Part shown: in pieces, positions 3,916 through 14,193 of the stretch
How positions within the stretch are numbered: position 1 is the stretch's first letter
How the letters are laid out: the number at the start of each line of letters is the position of its first letter
Assembly (NCBI GenBank): GCA_021295155.1
Contig: JAJTJC010000036.1
Span: 1,054,001 to 1,118,000 of the forward strand
DNA length: 64,000 nucleotides
DNA from: Flavobacteriaceae bacterium D16
GTDB taxonomy: Bacteria > Bacteroidota > Bacteroidia > Flavobacteriales > Flavobacteriaceae
Reading direction: 5' to 3'
Notes under the pieces: model-generated
Told to the model about the DNA's origin: nothing
Database searches by the model: none
What the model saw: the letters and a program-made list of their open reading frames with translations, nothing else
Position numbers and translations under genes: made by a program

Positions 3916-6306
3916 TTATTTCAATCTTCTTCCTACATAGTTTGTGGCTGCTGTAGTGAATCCCACGACACTTATGGAGCTCAAGGGCATCAATATCGCC
4001 GCGATAACGGGTTCCAATTGTCCGGTTACTGCAAAATACAGACCTGCCACATTATATACAAATGAGAAAACGAAACTCCATTTAATAATACGCATGGCTT
4101 TCTGCGAGGCCTCTATATAGGAATCCAATTCTTTAAATTTTGTGGCATCCAGTATTCCATCGCATGCCGGGGAAAAAACATTTACATTTTCAGAGAGTGC
4201 AATCCCTATCTCACTTTGAGCCAGAGCTCCGGCATCATTAAGTCCATCTCCAACCATCATCACTTTTTTTCCCTGATCCTGCAGGCTTTTAACAAATTCC
4301 AGTTTTTCCTCTGGTTTTTGATTGAAGAATAGGGGAGTTAATTTTGGCAACAAGGTCTGCAATCTTAATTTTTCTCCTTCATTGTCGCCAGATAGCACCG
4401 CTACATCCATCTGTTCAGAAAGTTTCCTGAACAGCTCTGGCATACCTTCACGATATTCATTGCGGAACACAAAGCATCCCTTGTAGGTTTCATTTGTGCT
4501 AATATGCACTACCGTCTTACCTAAGTCTTCATCCTGATTTTTCCCAACAAAAGAAGCAGAGCCAATTTTAATTTGCTGGTTATCTGCCTTGGCCGATAAG
4601 CCTTTGCCCTGAATCTCTTCATACTCATCCAGGGTAATAATGTCATGGTCTGCCAAAATAGTATACAAACTGCGACTCAAAGGGTGATTGGAAGCGCGAA
4701 GGGTATTTACCAACAAGGATTTCTCCTCTTCACTCAGAACAATTCCCTCATAAGTTACCTGTTCTTTGTTCGATTTGGTGAGTGTTCCGGTCTTGTCAAA
4801 TATGGCGGTGTCTACCTTGGCAAGCTGCTCTATGGCCTCCGTATCTTTGAGATAAAATTTCCTGTTCCCAAAAATACGCAGCAGGTTACCCAGGGTAAAG
4901 GGTGCTGCCAGTGCCAGGGCACAAGGACAGGCAATGATCAATACTGCTGTAAACACATTGAGGGCCATTGAAGGTTCAGTTAAGAGCCAGAAAAGGGTTG
5001 ATACGGTAGCTATGCTGAGGACCACCAGAGTAAACTGTTTACCTATCCGGTCCGTAAGGGTTCTAAATCCGGAGGAATGGCGGTTATGGAAAGCGGCATT
5101 ACTCCATAATTGAGTAAGATAACTCTGCGATACCGGTTTAAGGACATCCATTTCTATAGCTCCTGCAATCTGTTTGCCTCCGGCAAATATTTTATCGCCT
5201 GATTTTTTGGGTACCGGGGCAGATTCTCCAGTGACAAAACTGTAATCAATATAGGTTTTGGGACTGATCAGAATGCCGTCTACCGGAATCAGTTCCTGAT
5301 TTCGTATGAGCAGTCGGTCTCCTTTTTTAATATGATATACCTGCGCATTTTCTTCTGCTCCTCCAGGCAGTAATTTAGTTACAGCAATGGGAAAATAGGA
5401 TTTATAATCGCGTTCAAAAGACAGGAAGGAATAGGTTTTTTGTTGAAAGAATTTACCTAATAATAGGAAAAAGATCAAGCCGGTCAGGCTGTCAAAAAAT
5501 CCCGGGCCAAAATCGAAGAGTATATCTGCGGTACTCCTTGTAAAAAGGGCTATGATCCCCAGGGCAATTGGCACGTCAATATTGAGCATTCTTGCTCTCA
5601 GCCCCTTGTAGGCAGATTTGAGGTAATCCTGGCCTGCATAAAAAACCACGGGTAATGCAAAGGCAAACATGAGCCAGCGAAAGAAAGTTTTGTATTCTGT
5701 AAGCCAAAAGTCGGCTGCTTGTGCCTCCTTAATATCAAAATATTCGGGAAAGGAAAGGAACATCACATTGCCAAAGGCAAAACCCGCAACACCTAATTTA
5801 TAAATCAGGCTTCGGTCCTTGGCTTTGGTTGGTTTTCCCAGATCTTCCAAAGACAGATACGGTTCATAGCCGATCCTTGACAACAGGATCACCAGATCTT
5901 TCAGGGTCAGGTAATTGCGGTTGTAAGTTATCCGAATAGTTTTTTTAGGGAAATTAACCTGGGAATTCAACACCTGGGGATTCAGTTTGTTCAGATTTTC
6001 CAGGACCCAGATACAGGAACTGCAATGTATGGTAGGAATATAGAGGTTGATTATGGCCATCTGGCCATCCTGAAATTCAATCAGTTTTTCAGCAATAGCA
6101 GGAGTATCGAGAAAATCGTACTTGCCCTCGATTTCCGCTGGAGAACTACCAGCAGCTTGCTGTAAATCATAATAATAGGATAGATCGTGATCAGAGAAAA
6201 TCTCGTATACCGTTTTACACCCATTACAACAGAAGGTTTTACTGTCAAAGACTATTTTCGTGTTACCGCAGGGATCCCCACAATGGTAACAAGATACCTT
6301 ATCCAT
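3916..6306 (-). CDS. ccoI: CcoI/FixI-type copper-transporting P1B ATPase
   Basis: 796 residues. It exports or delivers copper for cbb3 oxidase assembly. In order: an N-terminal Cys-rich metal-binding segment (CYHCGDPCG, then CCNGC), an HMA-like domain with HCSSC near residue 95, eight membrane helices including the copper-binding ACPCALALA motif, the phosphorylation loop DKTGTLT and the hinge motif MVGDGLNDAGALA. Length and layout match CcoI/FixI. It is transcribed from the region shared with the divergent FNR-type regulator; a minus-strand -7-like box GACTTTTG starts at 6340, 29.5 bp from the centre of the dyad at 6364. Confidence 0.93.
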   Translation of the reverse strand: MDKVSCYHCGDPCGNTKIVFDSKTFCCNGCKTVYEIFSDHDLSYYYDLQQAAGSSPAEIEGKYDFLDTPAIAEKLIEFQDGQMAIINLYIPTIHCSSCIWVLENLNKLNPQVLNSQVNFPKKTIRITYNRNYLTLKDLVILLSRIGYEPYLSLEDLGKPTKAKDRSLIYKLGVAGFAFGNVMFLSFPEYFDIKEAQAADFWLTEYKTFFRWLMFAFALPVVFYAGQDYLKSAYKGLRARMLNIDVPIALGIIALFTRSTADILFDFGPGFFDSLTGLIFFLLLGKFFQQKTYSFLSFERDYKSYFPIAVTKLLPGGAEENAQVYHIKKGDRLLIRNQELIPVDGILISPKTYIDYSFVTGESAPVPKKSGDKIFAGGKQIAGAIEMDVLKPVSQSYLTQLWSNAAFHNRHSSGFRTLTDRIGKQFTLVVLSIATVSTLFWLLTEPSMALNVFTAVLIIACPCALALAAPFTLGNLLRIFGNRKFYLKDTEAIEQLAKVDTAIFDKTGTLTKSNKEQVTYEGIVLSEEEKSLLVNTLRASNHPLSRSLYTILADHDIITLDEYEEIQGKGLSAKADNQQIKIGSASFVGKNQDEDLGKTVVHISTNETYKGCFVFRNEYREGMPELFRKLSEQMDVAVLSGDNEGEKLRLQTLLPKLTPLFFNQKPEEKLEFVKSLQDQGKKVMMVGDGLNDAGALAQSEIGIALSENVNVFSPACDGILDATKFKELDSYIEASQKAMRIIKWSFVFSFVYNVAGLYFAVTGQLEPVIAAILMPLSSISVVGFTTAATNYVGRRLK

Positions 6307-8171: not shown

Positions 8172-8414
8172 TCAGTAATTTTCCCGATTTAGGTACTCAC
8201 CGCGAAGTGGGGCATCTTCGTAAAAATCATCAAAGGTTTTATCTGTGGTGTAGTTATCGGTCAGTACCCTGTAAACCATATATACGATAAGGATCTGGCC
8301 CATCACTGTAGTATAAAACACCCAATTAAAAGGAAAATTCATAGTTACCATTATGGTTACCATGATCAATAGTATGGTGGTCAGTCCCACCCAAAACATA
8401 GCAGAAGTGCGCAT
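8172..8414 (-). CDS. Small two-helix membrane protein
   Basis: 80 residues, not recognised. Two membrane helices (about 7-27 and 31-51) are followed by an acidic, aromatic cytosolic tail (FDDFYEDAP). It lies convergent with usp and 21 bp from its end, and could belong to the same microaerobic neighbourhood. No functional motif is visible. Confidence 0.65.
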   Translation of the reverse strand: MRTSAMFWVGLTTILLIMVTIMVTMNFPFNWVFYTTVMGQILIVYMVYRVLTDNYTTDKTFDDFYEDAPLRGEYLNRENY

Positions 8415-8539
8415 CTTTTTTTTGGCAAGTTATTTATTATATCCCTGGATTATTGTTAAGAGATTGATAAATGCCACTGGAAATCACCAGATTAACAGGC
8501 TTATTCTATAAAAATCTATTTTAATAGCAATAGCTTTCG

Positions 8540-8547
8540 TATCTTTG
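8540..8547 (+). promoter_or_regulatory. -7 promoter element of the candidate small RNA
   Basis: TATCTTTG is a perfect match to the Bacteroidota TAnnTTTG element. It would place transcription start at about 8553-8556, directly before the first hairpin of the RNA candidate. No clear -33 TTTG is visible. Confidence 0.6.
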
Positions 8548-8554
8548 TCACGTT

Positions 8555-8657
8555 GTGTTGGGTATTAGTTATGCTAATACCAGGTTGTTACCCAAAAGGC
8601 CTGTAAAGGTTTGGGTTATACCAATGAAAGGCTTTCCAGTTTGGGAGGCTTTTTTTG
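8555..8657 (+). ncRNA. Candidate structured small RNA or leader RNA upstream of hmgA
   Basis: About 100 nt between a perfect TAnnTTTG box and a T-tract terminator. It contains three consecutive hairpins: GGTATTAG/CTAATACC (8561-8568 with 8574-8581, loop TTATG); ACCCAAA/TTTGGGT (8590-8596 with 8610-8616), capped by CCT/AGG around a GTAA loop; and a nine-pair terminator stem. It lacks the SRP RNA, tmRNA and RNase P hallmarks. It ends about 110 bp before hmgA, so it is either a free-standing small RNA or an attenuator. The 8415-8767 gap otherwise holds nothing recognisable. Confidence 0.5.
8630..8657 (+). terminator. Intrinsic terminator of the candidate small RNA
   Basis: GGCTTTCCA (8630-8638) pairs with TGGGAGGCT (8642-8650), including three G-T pairs, across a 3-nt loop, and is followed by a run of T. 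Confidence 0.65.
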
Positions 8658-8767: not shown

Positions 8768-9925
8768 ATGCCACTTTACCACAAATTGGGGAAGATCCCG
8801 CACAAGAGACATACCATTTTTAAAAAGGAAGATGGTAGTTTACATTATGAACAACTTTTTGGTACCATTGGCTTTGATGGGATGTCATCCCTGATGTATC
8901 ACCTCCATCGCCCTACTATGGTTAAGGAAGTGGGCAAAACTTTGGATTTTCAACCAAGAGCGGCCGTGGAACACAATATGAAATCCCGATTGCTCAAGGG
9001 TCTTGAGGTAAAGCCTGAGGACGACTATTTGGATAGTCGGAAAGTTATACTATTTAATTCTGATGTTCATGTTGGTTTGGCAGCACCAAAAAAGTCCATG
9101 ACCTCCTATTTCTATAAGAATGCCGATGCAGATGAGCTGCTGTTTGTCCATAAGGGTAGCGGTACTCTGAAGACTCTTTTGGGAGAAATCCCATTTGAAT
9201 ATGGAGATTATTTGCTCATTCCCCGAGGCATGATCTATCAGATCCATTTTGATACGGAAGATAACCGCCTGCTGGTTACGGAATCTTATCATCCCCTATA
9301 CACACCCAAAAGGTACCGCAATTGGTTCGGCCAGCACCTGGAGCACTCTCCATTCTGCGAGCGTGATTTTAAACTACCCCAAAACCTTCAAACGCATGAC
9401 GAGCATGGTGAATTCCTGATGAAGGTTAAGAAGCAAGGGCAATTGCACCACCTGATCTACGCTTCCCATCCTTTTGATGTGGTAGGCTGGGATGGTTATA
9501 ACTACCCATATGGATTCTCCATACATGATTTTGAACCCATTACCGGTCGCGTACACCAACCACCTCCCGTGCATCAGACTTTCGAAACAAATGCCTTTGT
9601 AGTTTGCTCTTTTTGTCCCAGACTTTACGATTATCATCCGGAAGCTATCCCGGCCCCTTACAATCATTCCAATATAGATTCAGATGAGGTTCTCTATTAT
9701 GTGGATGGTGACTTTATGAGCAGGAAGGGAATAGACCAGGGCTATATTTCATTACATCCTGCCGGGATCCCACATGGTCCGCACCCAGGCACCTACGAGG
9801 GCAGTATTGGCAAAAAGGGTACAGAAGAATTGGCTGTGATGATCGATACCTTCAAACCGCTGATGCTAACACAACAGGCTCTGGATTTAGATGATGGCAA
9901 ATACTACCAGTCCTGGCTAGATTAA
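8768..9925 (+). CDS. hmgA: Homogentisate 1,2-dioxygenase
   Basis: 385 residues. It opens the aromatic ring of homogentisate in tyrosine/phenylalanine breakdown, using Fe(II). The sequence shows the two-cupin fold of the short (~385 aa) family form: a first cupin around ELLFVHKGSGTL ... GDYLLIPRG and a second with the iron-binding region around DSDEVLYYVDGDF and HPAGIPHGPHPG near residues 305-345. Its 3' end overlaps that of the convergent hutG by 9 bp. A candidate structured RNA lies upstream. Confidence 0.9.
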   Translation: MPLYHKLGKIPHKRHTIFKKEDGSLHYEQLFGTIGFDGMSSLMYHLHRPTMVKEVGKTLDFQPRAAVEHNMKSRLLKGLEVKPEDDYLDSRKVILFNSDVHVGLAAPKKSMTSYFYKNADADELLFVHKGSGTLKTLLGEIPFEYGDYLLIPRGMIYQIHFDTEDNRLLVTESYHPLYTPKRYRNWFGQHLEHSPFCERDFKLPQNLQTHDEHGEFLMKVKKQGQLHHLIYASHPFDVVGWDGYNYPYGFSIHDFEPITGRVHQPPPVHQTFETNAFVVCSFCPRLYDYHPEAIPAPYNHSNIDSDEVLYYVDGDFMSRKGIDQGYISLHPAGIPHGPHPGTYEGSIGKKGTEELAVMIDTFKPLMLTQQALDLDDGKYYQSWLD

Positions 9926-10879
9926 TTCAGGATGCCTGAGTACATAATGTAATAGGCCGGCAGCGAGTTTTGTAGTTTGTCCGTCCCTGTCGAACCTGGG
10001 ATTGCATTCTGCCAGATCCAGGCTCATAAGCTTACCCGAATGGATGATTTCTTCCAGTGTCCAGAGGGCAATATCAGGACGAAACCCGAAGGGGGAAGCC
10101 GCACTAACCCCCGGAGCATAGGCTGATGAAAATCCATCGAGATCTATAGTAAGGTATATCCGATCTACCTGCTCGAGGAATTCTTCCAGATCTTTTTTTA
10201 AAGTAGCGGTGTTTCCAATATGAAAATCGGAGTTCAAGACATAGTTAACACCCAGTTTGTCTGCCGTATCAAAAAGTTCTGCAGAATTGGCTTCTTCTCT
10301 AATCCCCAGGCAGAAGTAATGGAAGGGTTGTCCCGCTTTTTCAAGTTCCTTTGCTATCTGATAGAACGGAGTACCGGAATTAGGACCTTGCTCGGCTGAC
10401 CGGAGATCAAAATGAGCGTCAAGATTAATTATCCCTATGGATTCTTTCGAATTCGCATAGGCTCTGAGTCCCCTGTAATGGCCGTAAGCAATATCATGAC
10501 CTCCACCTATGAGCAGCGGGAAGCATCCTAAATCAAGTAACTGTTTTACTTTGTAAGACAGTAAATCCTGGGTTGCTTCGAGGTTCTGATTACTACATGT
10601 TACCAGGCCGGCATCACATAATTGAGTATTCATACCGCGGGGGTGTGGTAGTTTTGCCAATTCCTGTATGATAGAGACGGGCCCTTCCACGGAGCCGATC
10701 CTTCCCTGGTTTCTCTTTACACCTTCCTCGCAGGCATATCCCAGAATGGTAAAGGCCGGATTTGACAGGGCTACATCAGTTTCCAAATTCAGAAAACCGA
10801 TCCTTTCGTGCAGATATTGACCTGTACCACTGCTGCGACCCTTCCATAGTTTTGGTTTGGGGGGATGATAGTTCTTCAT
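9917..10879 (-). CDS. hutG: Formimidoylglutamase (arginase/ureohydrolase family)
   Basis: 320 residues from the ATG at 10879, five bases after the hutU stop; a start at 10912 would overlap hutU by 29 bp and is less likely. It hydrolyses N-formimino-L-glutamate to glutamate and formamide, the last step of the hut pathway. The binuclear manganese motifs are visible: GGGHDIAYGH, NLDAHFDLR and DLDGFS. It is the last gene of the hutHIUG operon. Confidence 0.9.
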   Translation of the reverse strand: MKNYHPPKPKLWKGRSSGTGQYLHERIGFLNLETDVALSNPAFTILGYACEEGVKRNQGRIGSVEGPVSIIQELAKLPHPRGMNTQLCDAGLVTCSNQNLEATQDLLSYKVKQLLDLGCFPLLIGGGHDIAYGHYRGLRAYANSKESIGIINLDAHFDLRSAEQGPNSGTPFYQIAKELEKAGQPFHYFCLGIREEANSAELFDTADKLGVNYVLNSDFHIGNTATLKKDLEEFLEQVDRIYLTIDLDGFSSAYAPGVSAASPFGFRPDIALWTLEEIIHSGKLMSLDLAECNPRFDRDGQTTKLAAGLLHYVLRHPELI

Positions 10880-10883
10880 GGCA

Positions 10884-12932
10884 CTAGCTGGCGTTAGGGT
10901 TTGGTTTATCATGGAACAGTCCTTTCAGGGAATCTTCTTCTACCAGGTTAGGTAAGGTAACTTCAAGACCAGGGCTTCTTTTCATCTCCCTTTTAATGGC
11001 AAAGAGAGCTTCTTCATTCCGGGCCCATCCCCTTCGGGATATGCCATTATTCACATCGAAAAATAACATATTGCGCAAGTTGTTCAGGGCCTTTACAGAG
11101 CCATCCAGTAACAGCCCAAAACCTCCGTTGATTACTTCTCCCCATCCAACACCGCCTCCATTATGGATAGACACCCAGGTTGCGCCCCTGAAGCTGTCCC
11201 CGATAACGTTATGAATGGCCATGTCTGCCGTAAATCTGCTTCCATCATAGATGTTACTGGTTTCCCTGAATGGAGAATCCGTACCACTAACATCGTGATG
11301 ATCCCGGCCCAATACAACGGGTGCTGATATTTCACCACTTGCTATGGCTTTATTGAAGGCTTCTGCAATTCGTATCCTGCCCTCTGCATCGGCATACAGG
11401 ATCCTGGCTTGTGAACCTACTACCAGTTGGTTGTGATCGGCTTCCACAATCCATTTAATATTGTCTTTCAATTGCTGTGCTATTTCTTCTGGAGCTCTTT
11501 CATTTAGTGATTCCAGTACTTTTTGGGCCAGAAGGTCTGTTGTTTTCAGGTCTTCTGGCTTTCCTGAGGTGCAAACCCATCGAAAGGGTCCAAATCCATA
11601 GTCAAAACACATAGGGCCCAGGATATCCTGTACATAGGAGGGATACCGGAAATCAATTCCATTTTCATCATATACATCAGCGCCTGCCCGAGAAGCCTCC
11701 AGCAGAAACGCATTACCATAATCAAAGAAGTACATACCGCGGGAAGCATGCTCATTAATAGCTGCTACCTGCCTCTTCAGAGATTCTTGAACCTTTTTCC
11801 TGAACAAATCCGGATCGGACACCATGAGGGAGTTGGCTTCTTCATAAGTCAATCCTGCCGGATAATATCCACCTGCCCAGGGGTTATGCAAAGAAGTCTG
11901 ATCAGAACCTAATTGTATGGGGAGCTCTTCTTGCAGTAGCCGTTCCCAGAGATCCACCACATTACCTACATAGGCCAGGGAGATGGCTTCATTTTTATCA
12001 ATAGCCTCCCGGGTCCGTTTGACCAATCTATCCAGGTCTTCAATGAGTTCATCCACCCATCCCTGTTCATGCCTTTTTTGAGCTGCAGCAGGATTAATTT
12101 CGGCACAGATTGTAATGCATCCGACTATATTTCCCGCTTTGGGTTGTGCTCCACTCATCCCCCCAAGACCGGAGGTAACAAATACTTTTCCTTTGGTTTG
12201 ACTTCCCCTAGGCAGCACTTTTCTGAAGGCATTCATGATCGTAATCGTAGTGCCATGAACAATCCCCTGAGGCCCTATGTACATGTAGGATCCGGCGGTC
12301 ATCTGACCGTATTGGGTTACACCCAGGGCATTGTATCTTTCCCAGTCGTCTGGTTTAGAATAATTAGGGATCATCATTCCATTGGTTAACACTACACGTG
12401 GTGCATTTTTATCGGATGGGAACAGACCCATAGGATGACCGGAGTAAAGATGCAAGGTTTGCTTCTGGGACATCCTGGCCAGATATTTCATAGTAAGCAG
12501 GTACTGAGCCCAATTCTGGAACACTGCCCCGTTACCACCATAGGTGATTAATTCATCCGGGTGCTGGGCAACTGCCGGGTCCAGATTGTTCTGGATCATC
12601 AGCATAATTGCCGCAGCAGCGCTGCATTTTGCAGGGTACTCTGCTATAGGACGGGCATATATAGGATAAGCAGGCTTGAAGCGGTACATATAAATGCGCC
12701 CGTATTGCTCAAGTTCTTCGGCAAATTCCAAGGCCAGTTCCTTATGCCATTTTTTTGGAAAATAACGCAGGGCATTTCGGATAGCTAATTTCTTTTCCTC
12801 CAGGGTGAGGAGGTCTTTGCGCTTTGGAGCGTGACTCACCTTACTACTAAAAACCGCTTTAGCCGGGAGGTTCTCCGGGATGCCTTGCAAAATAGCTGCC
12901 TGAAATTCGGTTAGGTCTACAGATGTTGCCAT
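10884..12932 (-). CDS. hutU: Urocanate hydratase, long form
   Basis: 682 residues from the ATG at 12932 (MATSVDLTEF), immediately after the hutI stop; an upstream ATG at 12971 would overlap hutI by 38 bp. It converts urocanate to imidazolonepropionate using tightly bound NAD+. Characteristic segments are TYGGNGAVFQNWAQY, TSGLGGMSGAQPKAG and the region around FDYGFGPFRWVC. The ~680-residue length is that of the Bacteroidota-type enzyme; the Pseudomonas enzyme is ~555. Second reaction of histidine degradation. Confidence 0.93.
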   Translation of the reverse strand: MATSVDLTEFQAAILQGIPENLPAKAVFSSKVSHAPKRKDLLTLEEKKLAIRNALRYFPKKWHKELALEFAEELEQYGRIYMYRFKPAYPIYARPIAEYPAKCSAAAAIMLMIQNNLDPAVAQHPDELITYGGNGAVFQNWAQYLLTMKYLARMSQKQTLHLYSGHPMGLFPSDKNAPRVVLTNGMMIPNYSKPDDWERYNALGVTQYGQMTAGSYMYIGPQGIVHGTTITIMNAFRKVLPRGSQTKGKVFVTSGLGGMSGAQPKAGNIVGCITICAEINPAAAQKRHEQGWVDELIEDLDRLVKRTREAIDKNEAISLAYVGNVVDLWERLLQEELPIQLGSDQTSLHNPWAGGYYPAGLTYEEANSLMVSDPDLFRKKVQESLKRQVAAINEHASRGMYFFDYGNAFLLEASRAGADVYDENGIDFRYPSYVQDILGPMCFDYGFGPFRWVCTSGKPEDLKTTDLLAQKVLESLNERAPEEIAQQLKDNIKWIVEADHNQLVVGSQARILYADAEGRIRIAEAFNKAIASGEISAPVVLGRDHHDVSGTDSPFRETSNIYDGSRFTADMAIHNVIGDSFRGATWVSIHNGGGVGWGEVINGGFGLLLDGSVKALNNLRNMLFFDVNNGISRRGWARNEEALFAIKREMKRSPGLEVTLPNLVEEDSLKGLFHDKPNPNAS

Positions 12933-12933
12933 A

Positions 12934-14193
12934 TCATTTATTGTTATCAACAGCAAAAACCTCTTGTCCATTTTTCCATACCCTATCTGGTTTCAGGCTG
13001 CCCTGATGGTAAAGGATTTCACTAAAGTGAGGAGTATAAAAGATACTAAAATCTGCCAAAAACCCTTGCTGTAATTTGCCACGGTCCTGTAAGTCTAATG
13101 CAGCAGCAGCCCTGAATGTAATACCTGCCAGTACTTCCGCATTACTCAGCTTCTCAAATGCACCCAGGATACAGGCCTGGGTAAGTAAATCTCCCATAGG
13201 TGCAGAACCGGGATTGTGATCGCTGGCGATGGCGAGGGATCCCCCTGCATCTAGAATTTTCCTGGCCGGGGTAAATCCACAACCCAGACCTATTGAAGCC
13301 CCGGGGAGGGCCATGGAAATGACTGAACTTTCAGATAATAATTTAATTTCCTTGTCCGTACTGGCCTCCAGATGATCGGCACTAAGAGCACCGAATGCTA
13401 CTGCTACCTCGCTTCCACCTGTTGAAAACTGGTCTGCGTGTATGCTTAATTGAAACCCCATATCCTTTGCCTTTTTCAGATAGGGACGTATAGTACTTGG
13501 TTCAAAAGCCCCTTCTTCCACAAAAGCATCAACCCTTTTGGCAAGGCCTTCTTGCTTTACCAGGGGTAATAATTCGGATGTAAGGAGTTTCAGGTATTCA
13601 ACGGGCCCAGACTCAAAATCTCTGGGGGTAATATGGGCAGCGAGACAGGTGGGGATCAGGTCTACAGGAACTTTCCTGTTGGCCTGCTTTATGGCCCTGA
13701 GCATTTTGAGCTCTTCCTCAACATTCAGCCCATAGCCACTTTTGACCTCTATGGTGGTGCCCCCATTTTGTAAATGCCTGAGGGCCCTTCGGATCACACC
13801 ATTAGTCAGGGCAGTTATATCAGCTTCTCTTGTTTTTTGTACCGTATCCCAGATGCCACCTCCTTTTTTTGCTATTTCCTGATAGGTTGCGCCTGAATTG
13901 CGCAGGGCGTAATCTTTTGCCCTGCTTCCCGCGTAACAGATATGGGTATGGGCATCAATCCAACCTGGTAATACCACACAAGGCTCTTCCAATAAAATGA
14001 AAGTTGCCTTAACCTGCCGGGCCTCCTCTTCCATATTCGCATAATTACCGATAGCCATGATCTGTTTATCCCGAAGGAGCAGGCCGCAGTTTTCAAAGAG
14101 GGGTAATTCGGAATCAGCAATAGGTCCTCTTAGCGGTAAGCCGCTCATCGTTAGTAATTGGGTAATCGGGCCAATAAAGGTATATGCCGCCAT
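12934..14193 (-). CDS. hutI: Imidazolonepropionase
   Basis: 419 residues from the ATG at 14193; an in-frame TTG at 14202 overlaps hutH and is not preferred. An amidohydrolase that opens the imidazolone ring to give formiminoglutamate. The HxH metal site is in GWIDAHTHICYAGSR; further ligands are in IHADQFS and the IASDHNPGSAP segment. It lies five bases downstream of hutH and upstream of hutU in a compact operon. Confidence 0.93.
   Translation of the reverse strand: MAAYTFIGPITQLLTMSGLPLRGPIADSELPLFENCGLLLRDKQIMAIGNYANMEEEARQVKATFILLEEPCVVLPGWIDAHTHICYAGSRAKDYALRNSGATYQEIAKKGGGIWDTVQKTREADITALTNGVIRRALRHLQNGGTTIEVKSGYGLNVEEELKMLRAIKQANRKVPVDLIPTCLAAHITPRDFESGPVEYLKLLTSELLPLVKQEGLAKRVDAFVEEGAFEPSTIRPYLKKAKDMGFQLSIHADQFSTGGSEVAVAFGALSADHLEASTDKEIKLLSESSVISMALPGASIGLGCGFTPARKILDAGGSLAIASDHNPGSAPMGDLLTQACILGAFEKLSNAEVLAGITFRAAAALDLQDRGKLQQGFLADFSIFYTPHFSEILYHQGSLKPDRVWKNGQEVFAVDNNK

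Follow-up and report, generated by a model that had tools for sequence, protein, structure and literature searches.

What is the short, structured stretch of DNA that lies upstream of hmgA in Flavobacteriaceae bacterium D16, and does it act on that gene or elsewhere in the genome? The window analysed here is a stretch of 64,000 nt of this genome (contig JAJTJC010000036.1, positions 1,054,001 to 1,118,000, forward strand), and a preliminary description made from the sequence alone had proposed at this site a small RNA, about 100 nt long and equipped with a promoter and a terminator of its own, which might act free or control hmgA. The parts of the locus, in window coordinates, are as follows.

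8534 to 8537, + strand: CTTT, within a conserved A-run-N-CTTT element that precedes the -10 box of own-promoter copies (positions -23 to -15 in a logo built from 44 distinct upstream regions)
8540 to 8547, + strand: -10 box TATCTTTG, Bacteroidetes type (TAnnTTTG), read from the window sequence; 45 of the 149 family members have one
8552 to 8656, + strand: sRNA gene, about 105 nt, ends predicted; covariance-model match in its own genome at E 1.2e-13, and covariation
8552 to 8560, + strand: segment A, GUUGUGUUG, near-invariant predicted 5' end; complementary to CAACACAAC in the pnp leader
8561 to 8581, + strand: hairpin 1 (8561-8568 with 8574-8581), structure kept and sequence free; double changes in 8 of 8 modelled pairs
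8583 to 8622, + strand: hairpin 2, closed by GGU:ACC, from the predicted fold; double changes in 4 of 4 inner modelled pairs
8621 to 8633, + strand: segment B, CCAAUGAAAGGCU, near-invariant; complementary to (A/G)GUUUUUCAUUGG in the pnp leader
8626 to 8656, + strand: intrinsic terminator, stem 8626-8654 followed by a T run, from the fold and the covariation model; its 5' arm overlaps segment B

Most of the architecture that had been read by eye holds. The promoter box is a perfect TAnnTTTG, which we take to be the Bacteroidetes -10 consensus and from which its type is assigned; the first hairpin has the eight perfect pairs described, to which the predicted fold adds a ninth, T-G, and the terminator stem that had been proposed is followed by the end of a T run. 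The second hairpin is present, but its pairs, described as seven plus a capped three, number 3+6+4 in the fold. The 118 nt originally delimited fold at -39.9 kcal/mol (z = -3.82), a value as good as which was reached by none of 200 shuffles. Among the open reading frames of the window, none of 60 aa or more overlaps the sRNA, in line with the earlier statement that there is no reading frame here. A coding reading from the ATG in AATGAAAGG was dropped by eye, as the frame in the window meets no stop before the transcript ends; the ATG is also lost in two variants (G125 and G401). A search with Rfam 15 at gathering score returned two tRNAs alone in the whole window and nothing on the sRNA, and no SRP RNA, tmRNA, RNase P or 6S covariance model matched the window at that score. 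The search that had been suggested as a check thus assigns no family to the sRNA. Extending it at gathering score to the window plus ten homologous loci gave no family besides tRNA, and with a relaxed E the window copy and a Flavobacterium aquidurense copy yielded matches all far below threshold.

A first DNA search, run on 99 genomes, found matches in 30, many of these matches being bare terminators, and at E 0.01 a first covariance model matched 284 of 395 genomes from the window's family, false weak matches included; one of these, in G308, proved to be a terminator with no sRNA and was discarded. The second covariance model, built from 97 aligned matches, was run on a sample of the order, where it matched 68 of 246 genomes at E 0.001: all 53 Flavobacteriaceae, together with 15 weak matches in other families (best E 1.2e-5). 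Three of these 15 were inspected (G480, G510 and G098) and rejected, being terminator-like and without GTTGTGTTG. The genome of D16 itself holds a single convincing copy (E 1.2e-13; next best 0.004). A pattern scan of named genomes gave at least 119 stretches; where a title gives a genus, it mostly belongs to the Flavobacteriaceae, the matches listed including Flavobacterium, Zobellia, Maribacter, Aquimarina, Kordia, Capnocytophaga and others; it is by these titles that we identify the family grouping in our genome samples as Flavobacteriaceae. Among the matches listed, a few metagenome-assembled genomes are titled Rhizobium, Nitrotoga or Chryseobacterium, which we take for mislabels, and some bear only Bacteroidetes or Flavobacteriales. 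Tandem copies also occur, four of them spaced about 484 nt apart in one genome (G398:C1:293715-295262) and two each at loci L067 and L083, beside repeated tRNA-Asp genes.

The structure is conserved more strongly than chance would allow. Across 96 distinct rows of an alignment fitted to the covariance model, 96.1% of pair cells keep their pairing, a share that falls to 77.5% on shuffling, and double-change cells number 389 against 102, a count reached in none of 500 shuffles; covariation, the lack of which would have spoken against the RNA as first described, is thus found. The number of pairs with any double change shows no excess (14, against 13.5 in shuffles). Double changes were seen in all eight modelled pairs of hairpin 1 and all four inner modelled pairs of hairpin 2, and the terminator hardly varies in the alignment. 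In a check that involved no fitting, a stem of at least 6 bp starting no more than 6 nt from GUUGUGUUG was found in 114 of 136 distinct inserts (84%), compared with 21% of mononucleotide-shuffled inserts, and the distinct inserts carry 77 different 5' arms of hairpin 1. Therefore, hairpin 1 conserves its shape and not its sequence. Some relatives have a short form that lacks this hairpin. Conservation of sequence is concentrated instead in GUUGUGUUG and in segment B, whose family consensus is CCAAUGAAARGCU. Since homologues occur throughout the family and compensatory changes in all eight pairs of hairpin 1, the signal goes beyond chance, and the homologues, the covariation and the conserved promoter together fit the small RNA as proposed, promoter and terminator included. 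A conserved -10 box and a terminator are seen in the sequence, and the short transcript that they would delimit is predicted.

The neighbourhood of the gene was compared in 149 distinct copies (167 before removal of duplicates), parsed with a pattern that requires GTTGTGTTG and C[AG]ATGA; many of these loci are short or end at contig ends, and absences of neighbours are uncertain. A tRNA-Asp gene lies within 600 nt upstream on the same strand in 85 of the 149, the spacer being 8-132 nt in 84 copies and 334 nt in one, and hmgA lies downstream on the same strand in 26. A TAnnTTTG box precedes 45 copies, only one of which also has the tRNA-Asp. Twenty boxed copies have neither hmgA nor tRNA-Asp, and 14 of these are followed, on the opposite strand and 93-918 nt away, by an arginase-family gene, an assignment checked with Pfam at two of the 14 loci. 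In the window this gene follows hmgA (9917-10912), and it marks the sRNA locus also where hmgA is absent; therefore, the RNA stays in position whether hmgA is present or not. A cis-acting element of hmgA, such as a riboswitch or attenuator, would suit the window, where 216 nt separate the start of segment A from that of hmgA (Pfam HgmA_N, from 8768), and the 26 copies with hmgA downstream. However, the context weighs heavily against an RNA that belongs to hmgA: most copies follow tRNA-Asp, and the 14 own-promoter copies have the arginase-family gene without hmgA in the DNA compared; the RNA also ends in a conserved terminator. Control of hmgA, as first suggested, is not supported by this comparison, and we regard it as hardly credible. 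Two other features of these surroundings are recorded here. Upstream of the sRNA, window 8172-8414 (minus strand) encodes an 80-aa protein with no Pfam match that is conserved at loci L002 and L003, and next to hmgA, window 9917-12971 holds the genes of the arginase-family protein and a urocanase, a probable histidine-use cluster.

How the sRNA is made appears to differ within the family. Own-promoter copies that could be named belong to Maribacter, Zobellia, Ulvibacterium, Croceivirga, Allomuricauda and Zeaxanthinibacter, which we take to be one clade. In the logo of the regions upstream of own-promoter copies (44 distinct regions, window 8525-8551), the A-run-N-CTTT at -23 to -15 exceeds a plain -10 box and is perhaps a regulator site. 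The tRNA-linked copies have an A/U-rich stretch directly before GUUGUGUUG, and no TAnnTTTG box appears at this place. Of the 85 spacers that separate tRNA-Asp from sRNA, 74 contain a T run of six or more, in many cases behind a terminator-like hairpin, and four spacers measure only 8-11 nt, too short for a promoter. We infer that the tRNA-linked copies are co-transcribed with tRNA-Asp and processed. The window's clade probably transcribes the sRNA from a promoter of its own, and most of the family together with tRNA-Asp. In D16 itself the tRNA-Asp gene lies about 36.7 kb from the sRNA, and the stretch behind it holds no sRNA copy. In the genus Flavobacterium, hairpin 2 (GGTTTAGTAGTTAGACC) resembles by eye the 5' end (GGTTTGGTAGTTCAG) of the tRNA-Asp next to it and also that tRNA's 3' acceptor strand (CCAGACC), as at L082 (minus strand, 5651-5860) and in further tRNA-linked copies, a likeness that may be the remnant of a tandem tRNA copy or chance.

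The two near-invariant segments direct attention to a gene elsewhere in the genome. The complement of segment A, CAACACAAC, occurs at 19 sites in D16, one of them the sRNA gene, a count for which the pattern, being palindromic by letters, allows no usable reversed control. Two overlapping sites lie 85 nt before the pnp start in the gap between rpsO and pnp, and the same gap holds TTTTTCATTGG, the complement of segment B; the flanking genes were identified by Pfam as those of S15 and PNPase. The sRNA (G000:C11:1062552) and pnp (1354236-1354535) are about 292 kb apart on one contig. On its own, the segment B complement TTYTCATYGG is not enriched in this genome (56 sites, 60 in the control). The two-part pattern CATTGGN{0,15}CAACACAAC was found in 75 of 149 family genomes, against 13 of 149 for the reversed control, and 19 of the 30 two-part loci that were fetched are the rpsO-pnp gap, on the sense strand. 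The other 11 comprise one sRNA gene (L226) and ten sites that overlap open reading frames, and TTTTT precedes CATTGG in none of them. Two places among the reading-frame sites recur three times each, one at a fixed position within an ORF of 286-288 aa (L227, L231 and L246) and one antisense in an ORF of 351-360 aa (L228, L250 and L251), and are probably conserved coding sequence.

Pairing was then scored in a test set of 80 genomes, nearly all picked for their sRNA matches and none for the target. All of them except G059 yielded a PNPase (79 genomes), and dropping G308, which has no sRNA, and three genomes of other families left 75 pairs of sRNA and leader. In 71 of the 75, the 13-nt and 9-nt segments pair fully with the pnp leader (22 of 22 positions, G-U allowed), so that conserved complementarity to an mRNA encoded elsewhere, expected of a trans-acting sRNA, is present. 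The four incomplete pairs score 21, 21, 19 and 18, owing to a mismatch in G125, one unpaired base in G043, three in G262 and four in G057, where the 9-nt match is apparently shifted. The best score among 1,500 shuffled leaders was 20, attained by 15 of them, and the three genomes of other families score 17-18. The element lies 59-133 nt upstream of the pnp start codon. On both strands of 0.95 Mb of family DNA there is no complete two-part site outside sRNA genes, and the 13-nt part alone has one site there; before masking the scan gave 60 two-part matches, of which the ten listed are sRNA genes read on the reverse strand, and after masking none. With a gap of 3-33, the element pattern was found in 28 of 53 family genomes and in one of 193 other genomes of the order, and part of the family's misses arise because several leaders like those of the genus Flavobacterium have longer gaps. 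Two double changes keep the pairing, C:G to U:A in G401 and A:U to G:C in G262; segments A and B are nearly invariant and the genomes are related, and therefore support by covariation comes from these two clear cases only. At the level of sequence, conservation, structure, two-part complementarity, specificity for pnp and restriction to the family are established, and pairing of the sRNA with the pnp leader is strongly supported; further targets may exist. Of the two modes of action first offered, this conserved complementarity at a distance favours that of an RNA that may act free.

The target bases are themselves predicted to lie in structure. According to predicted folds and alignments, a hairpin of many leaders, AAAAAGCU...AGUUUUU, overlaps them with its 3' strand, and AAAAA[GA][CT] occurs no more than 35 nt upstream of the site in 58 of 75 leaders, a count without control; in the leader of D16 itself this first hairpin is absent from the predicted fold. 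A second helix overlaps the target bases with its 5' strand; it reads GGUC...GACC or, in the genus Flavobacterium, GGGUUUUAG...CUAAAACCC, and in predicted folds encloses a C/A-rich loop holding CAACACAAC. A 5-bp partner for this helix is present in 61 of 75 leaders, compared with 37% when the downstream sequence is shuffled. Given these overlaps, sRNA pairing must therefore refold the leader, and since segment B lies partly inside the terminator stem, part of the sRNA terminator must open. The pair from D16 cofolds at -86.3 kcal/mol, against -39.9 and -31.9 apart. With full-length sRNAs, the mean gain on cofolding over 74 pairs is -13.0 kcal/mol and drops to -7.2 when the leader is shuffled; a cognate leader is better than all ten of its shuffles in only 53 of 74. 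The effect is stronger when the 3' arm of the terminator is removed, the gain being -18.6 against -9.3 and the cognate leader the best in 67 of 75.

We therefore think it likely that this is a trans-acting base-pairing sRNA of the Flavobacteriaceae, a large family that lives in sea and soil, with the pnp leader as its conserved target, which would set PNPase synthesis by refolding that leader. Its 5' end, GUUGUGUUG, would pair with CAACACAAC in the C/A-rich, mostly single-stranded loop and segment B with (A/G)GUUUUUCAUUGG upstream of it, the variable hairpins 1 and 2 being looped out between the two paired segments. Such pairing would open the leader hairpin and the second helix and leave the pnp leader refolded. 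As the outcome, the pnp mRNA would decay, perhaps once RNase III has cut the duplex, and PNPase synthesis would fall. As the site lies 59-133 nt from the start codon, a direct block of the ribosome is not evident, and this distance, together with the analogy of RNase III in E. coli, leads us to favour an effect on mRNA decay. We infer transcription of the sRNA, an encounter of the two RNAs in the cell and the fall in PNPase synthesis. The sign of regulation is a guess that leans to repression and gives activation a lesser chance.

If the pairing is right but its sign opposite, the sRNA would activate or stabilise the pnp mRNA by opening the leader helices, building up when PNPase is short and so raising PNPase. 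The location of target bases within leader helices, which binding would unfold, and a site away from the start codon would suit this reading; the start codon, however, is not visibly covered by helices in most of the ten folds inspected, and in E. coli RNase III acts negatively on pnp, as parts of PMC9032294 describe it, which makes activation of this kind rather unlikely. A further reading turns the relation around, making the leader a decoy that unzips the sRNA terminator and exposes the sRNA to decay, with other mRNAs as the true targets. Segment B does overlap the 5' arm of the terminator, and protease mRNAs would be such targets if the RNA were Rfp18 (PMC9723704). This reading leaves the overlap of the leader helices with the site unexplained, and no second conserved leader with a full two-part site appeared among the 11 fetched sites outside pnp, in a search by exact patterns that weaker targets could escape; we hold it to be improbable. 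Very improbable, in our judgement, is a structural RNA that binds protein and for which complementarity to pnp is secondary. Hairpin 1 keeps its structure and not its sequence, as such an RNA might, yet the near-invariant segments are those complementary to pnp. Repression through a refolded pnp leader remains the reading that we prefer.

To our knowledge, few sRNAs of Bacteroidota have a convincing target. The nearest functional analogue is SraG of E. coli, an sRNA reportedly linked to the amount of PNPase by Fontaine et al. and, as we understand it, involving the pnp leader region. SraG is encoded at the pnp-rpsO locus, whereas the flavobacterial RNA lies elsewhere, after tRNA-Asp or upstream of hmgA or the arginase-family gene. 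Both SraG and the Flavo-1 RNA motif presumably have a place in Rfam. No match to SraG was found in the window, the ten loci or the F. aquidurense copy. The pnp gene of E. coli is said to be autoregulated by RNase III and PNPase (work of Jarrige, 2001, and Carzaniga, 2009); in contrast, the second strand of the duplex proposed here would be supplied in trans by an sRNA. In that bacterium, cleavage by RNase III in the pnp 5' UTR starts decay of the mRNA, according to parts of PMC9032294. Among structured flavobacterial RNAs, parts of PMC9723704 name the Flavo-1 motif. Our RNA shares with Flavo-1 its structured nature and wide occurrence in Flavobacteriaceae, but at gathering score the window and the ten loci match no Rfam family except tRNA. 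In the same source, the sRNA Rfp18 of Flavobacterium psychrophilum appears as genus-conserved and strongly structured, with at least three stem-loops of which the third is predicted to pair with mRNAs; the targets reported are metalloprotease mRNAs, and pnp goes unmentioned in the parts of its main text considered here (PMC9723704). As structured flavobacterial sRNAs with stem-loops the two RNAs are alike, and Rfp18 could be a member of the present family. In the open-licence literature, outside which most subscription papers lie, we found no report of the pair of sRNA and pnp in Flavobacteriaceae.

To conclude, we present here an RNA family and a target site that are co-conserved across a bacterial family, with a pairing that is directly testable by two pairs of point mutants. 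More tentatively, and with rather less confidence than in the pairing, we envisage a homeostasis circuit throughout the family, in which an sRNA mostly made with tRNA-Asp refolds the PNPase leader by two-part toehold exchange and so ties PNPase synthesis to tRNA transcription or processing, having moved to its own promoter in the Maribacter/Zobellia clade. If the regulation by pairing proposed here is real, Flavobacteriaceae and enteric bacteria would both control PNPase through an RNA duplex at the pnp leader, by different means, and an sRNA gene would be able to shift from a tRNA transcript to an independent promoter with its target retained.
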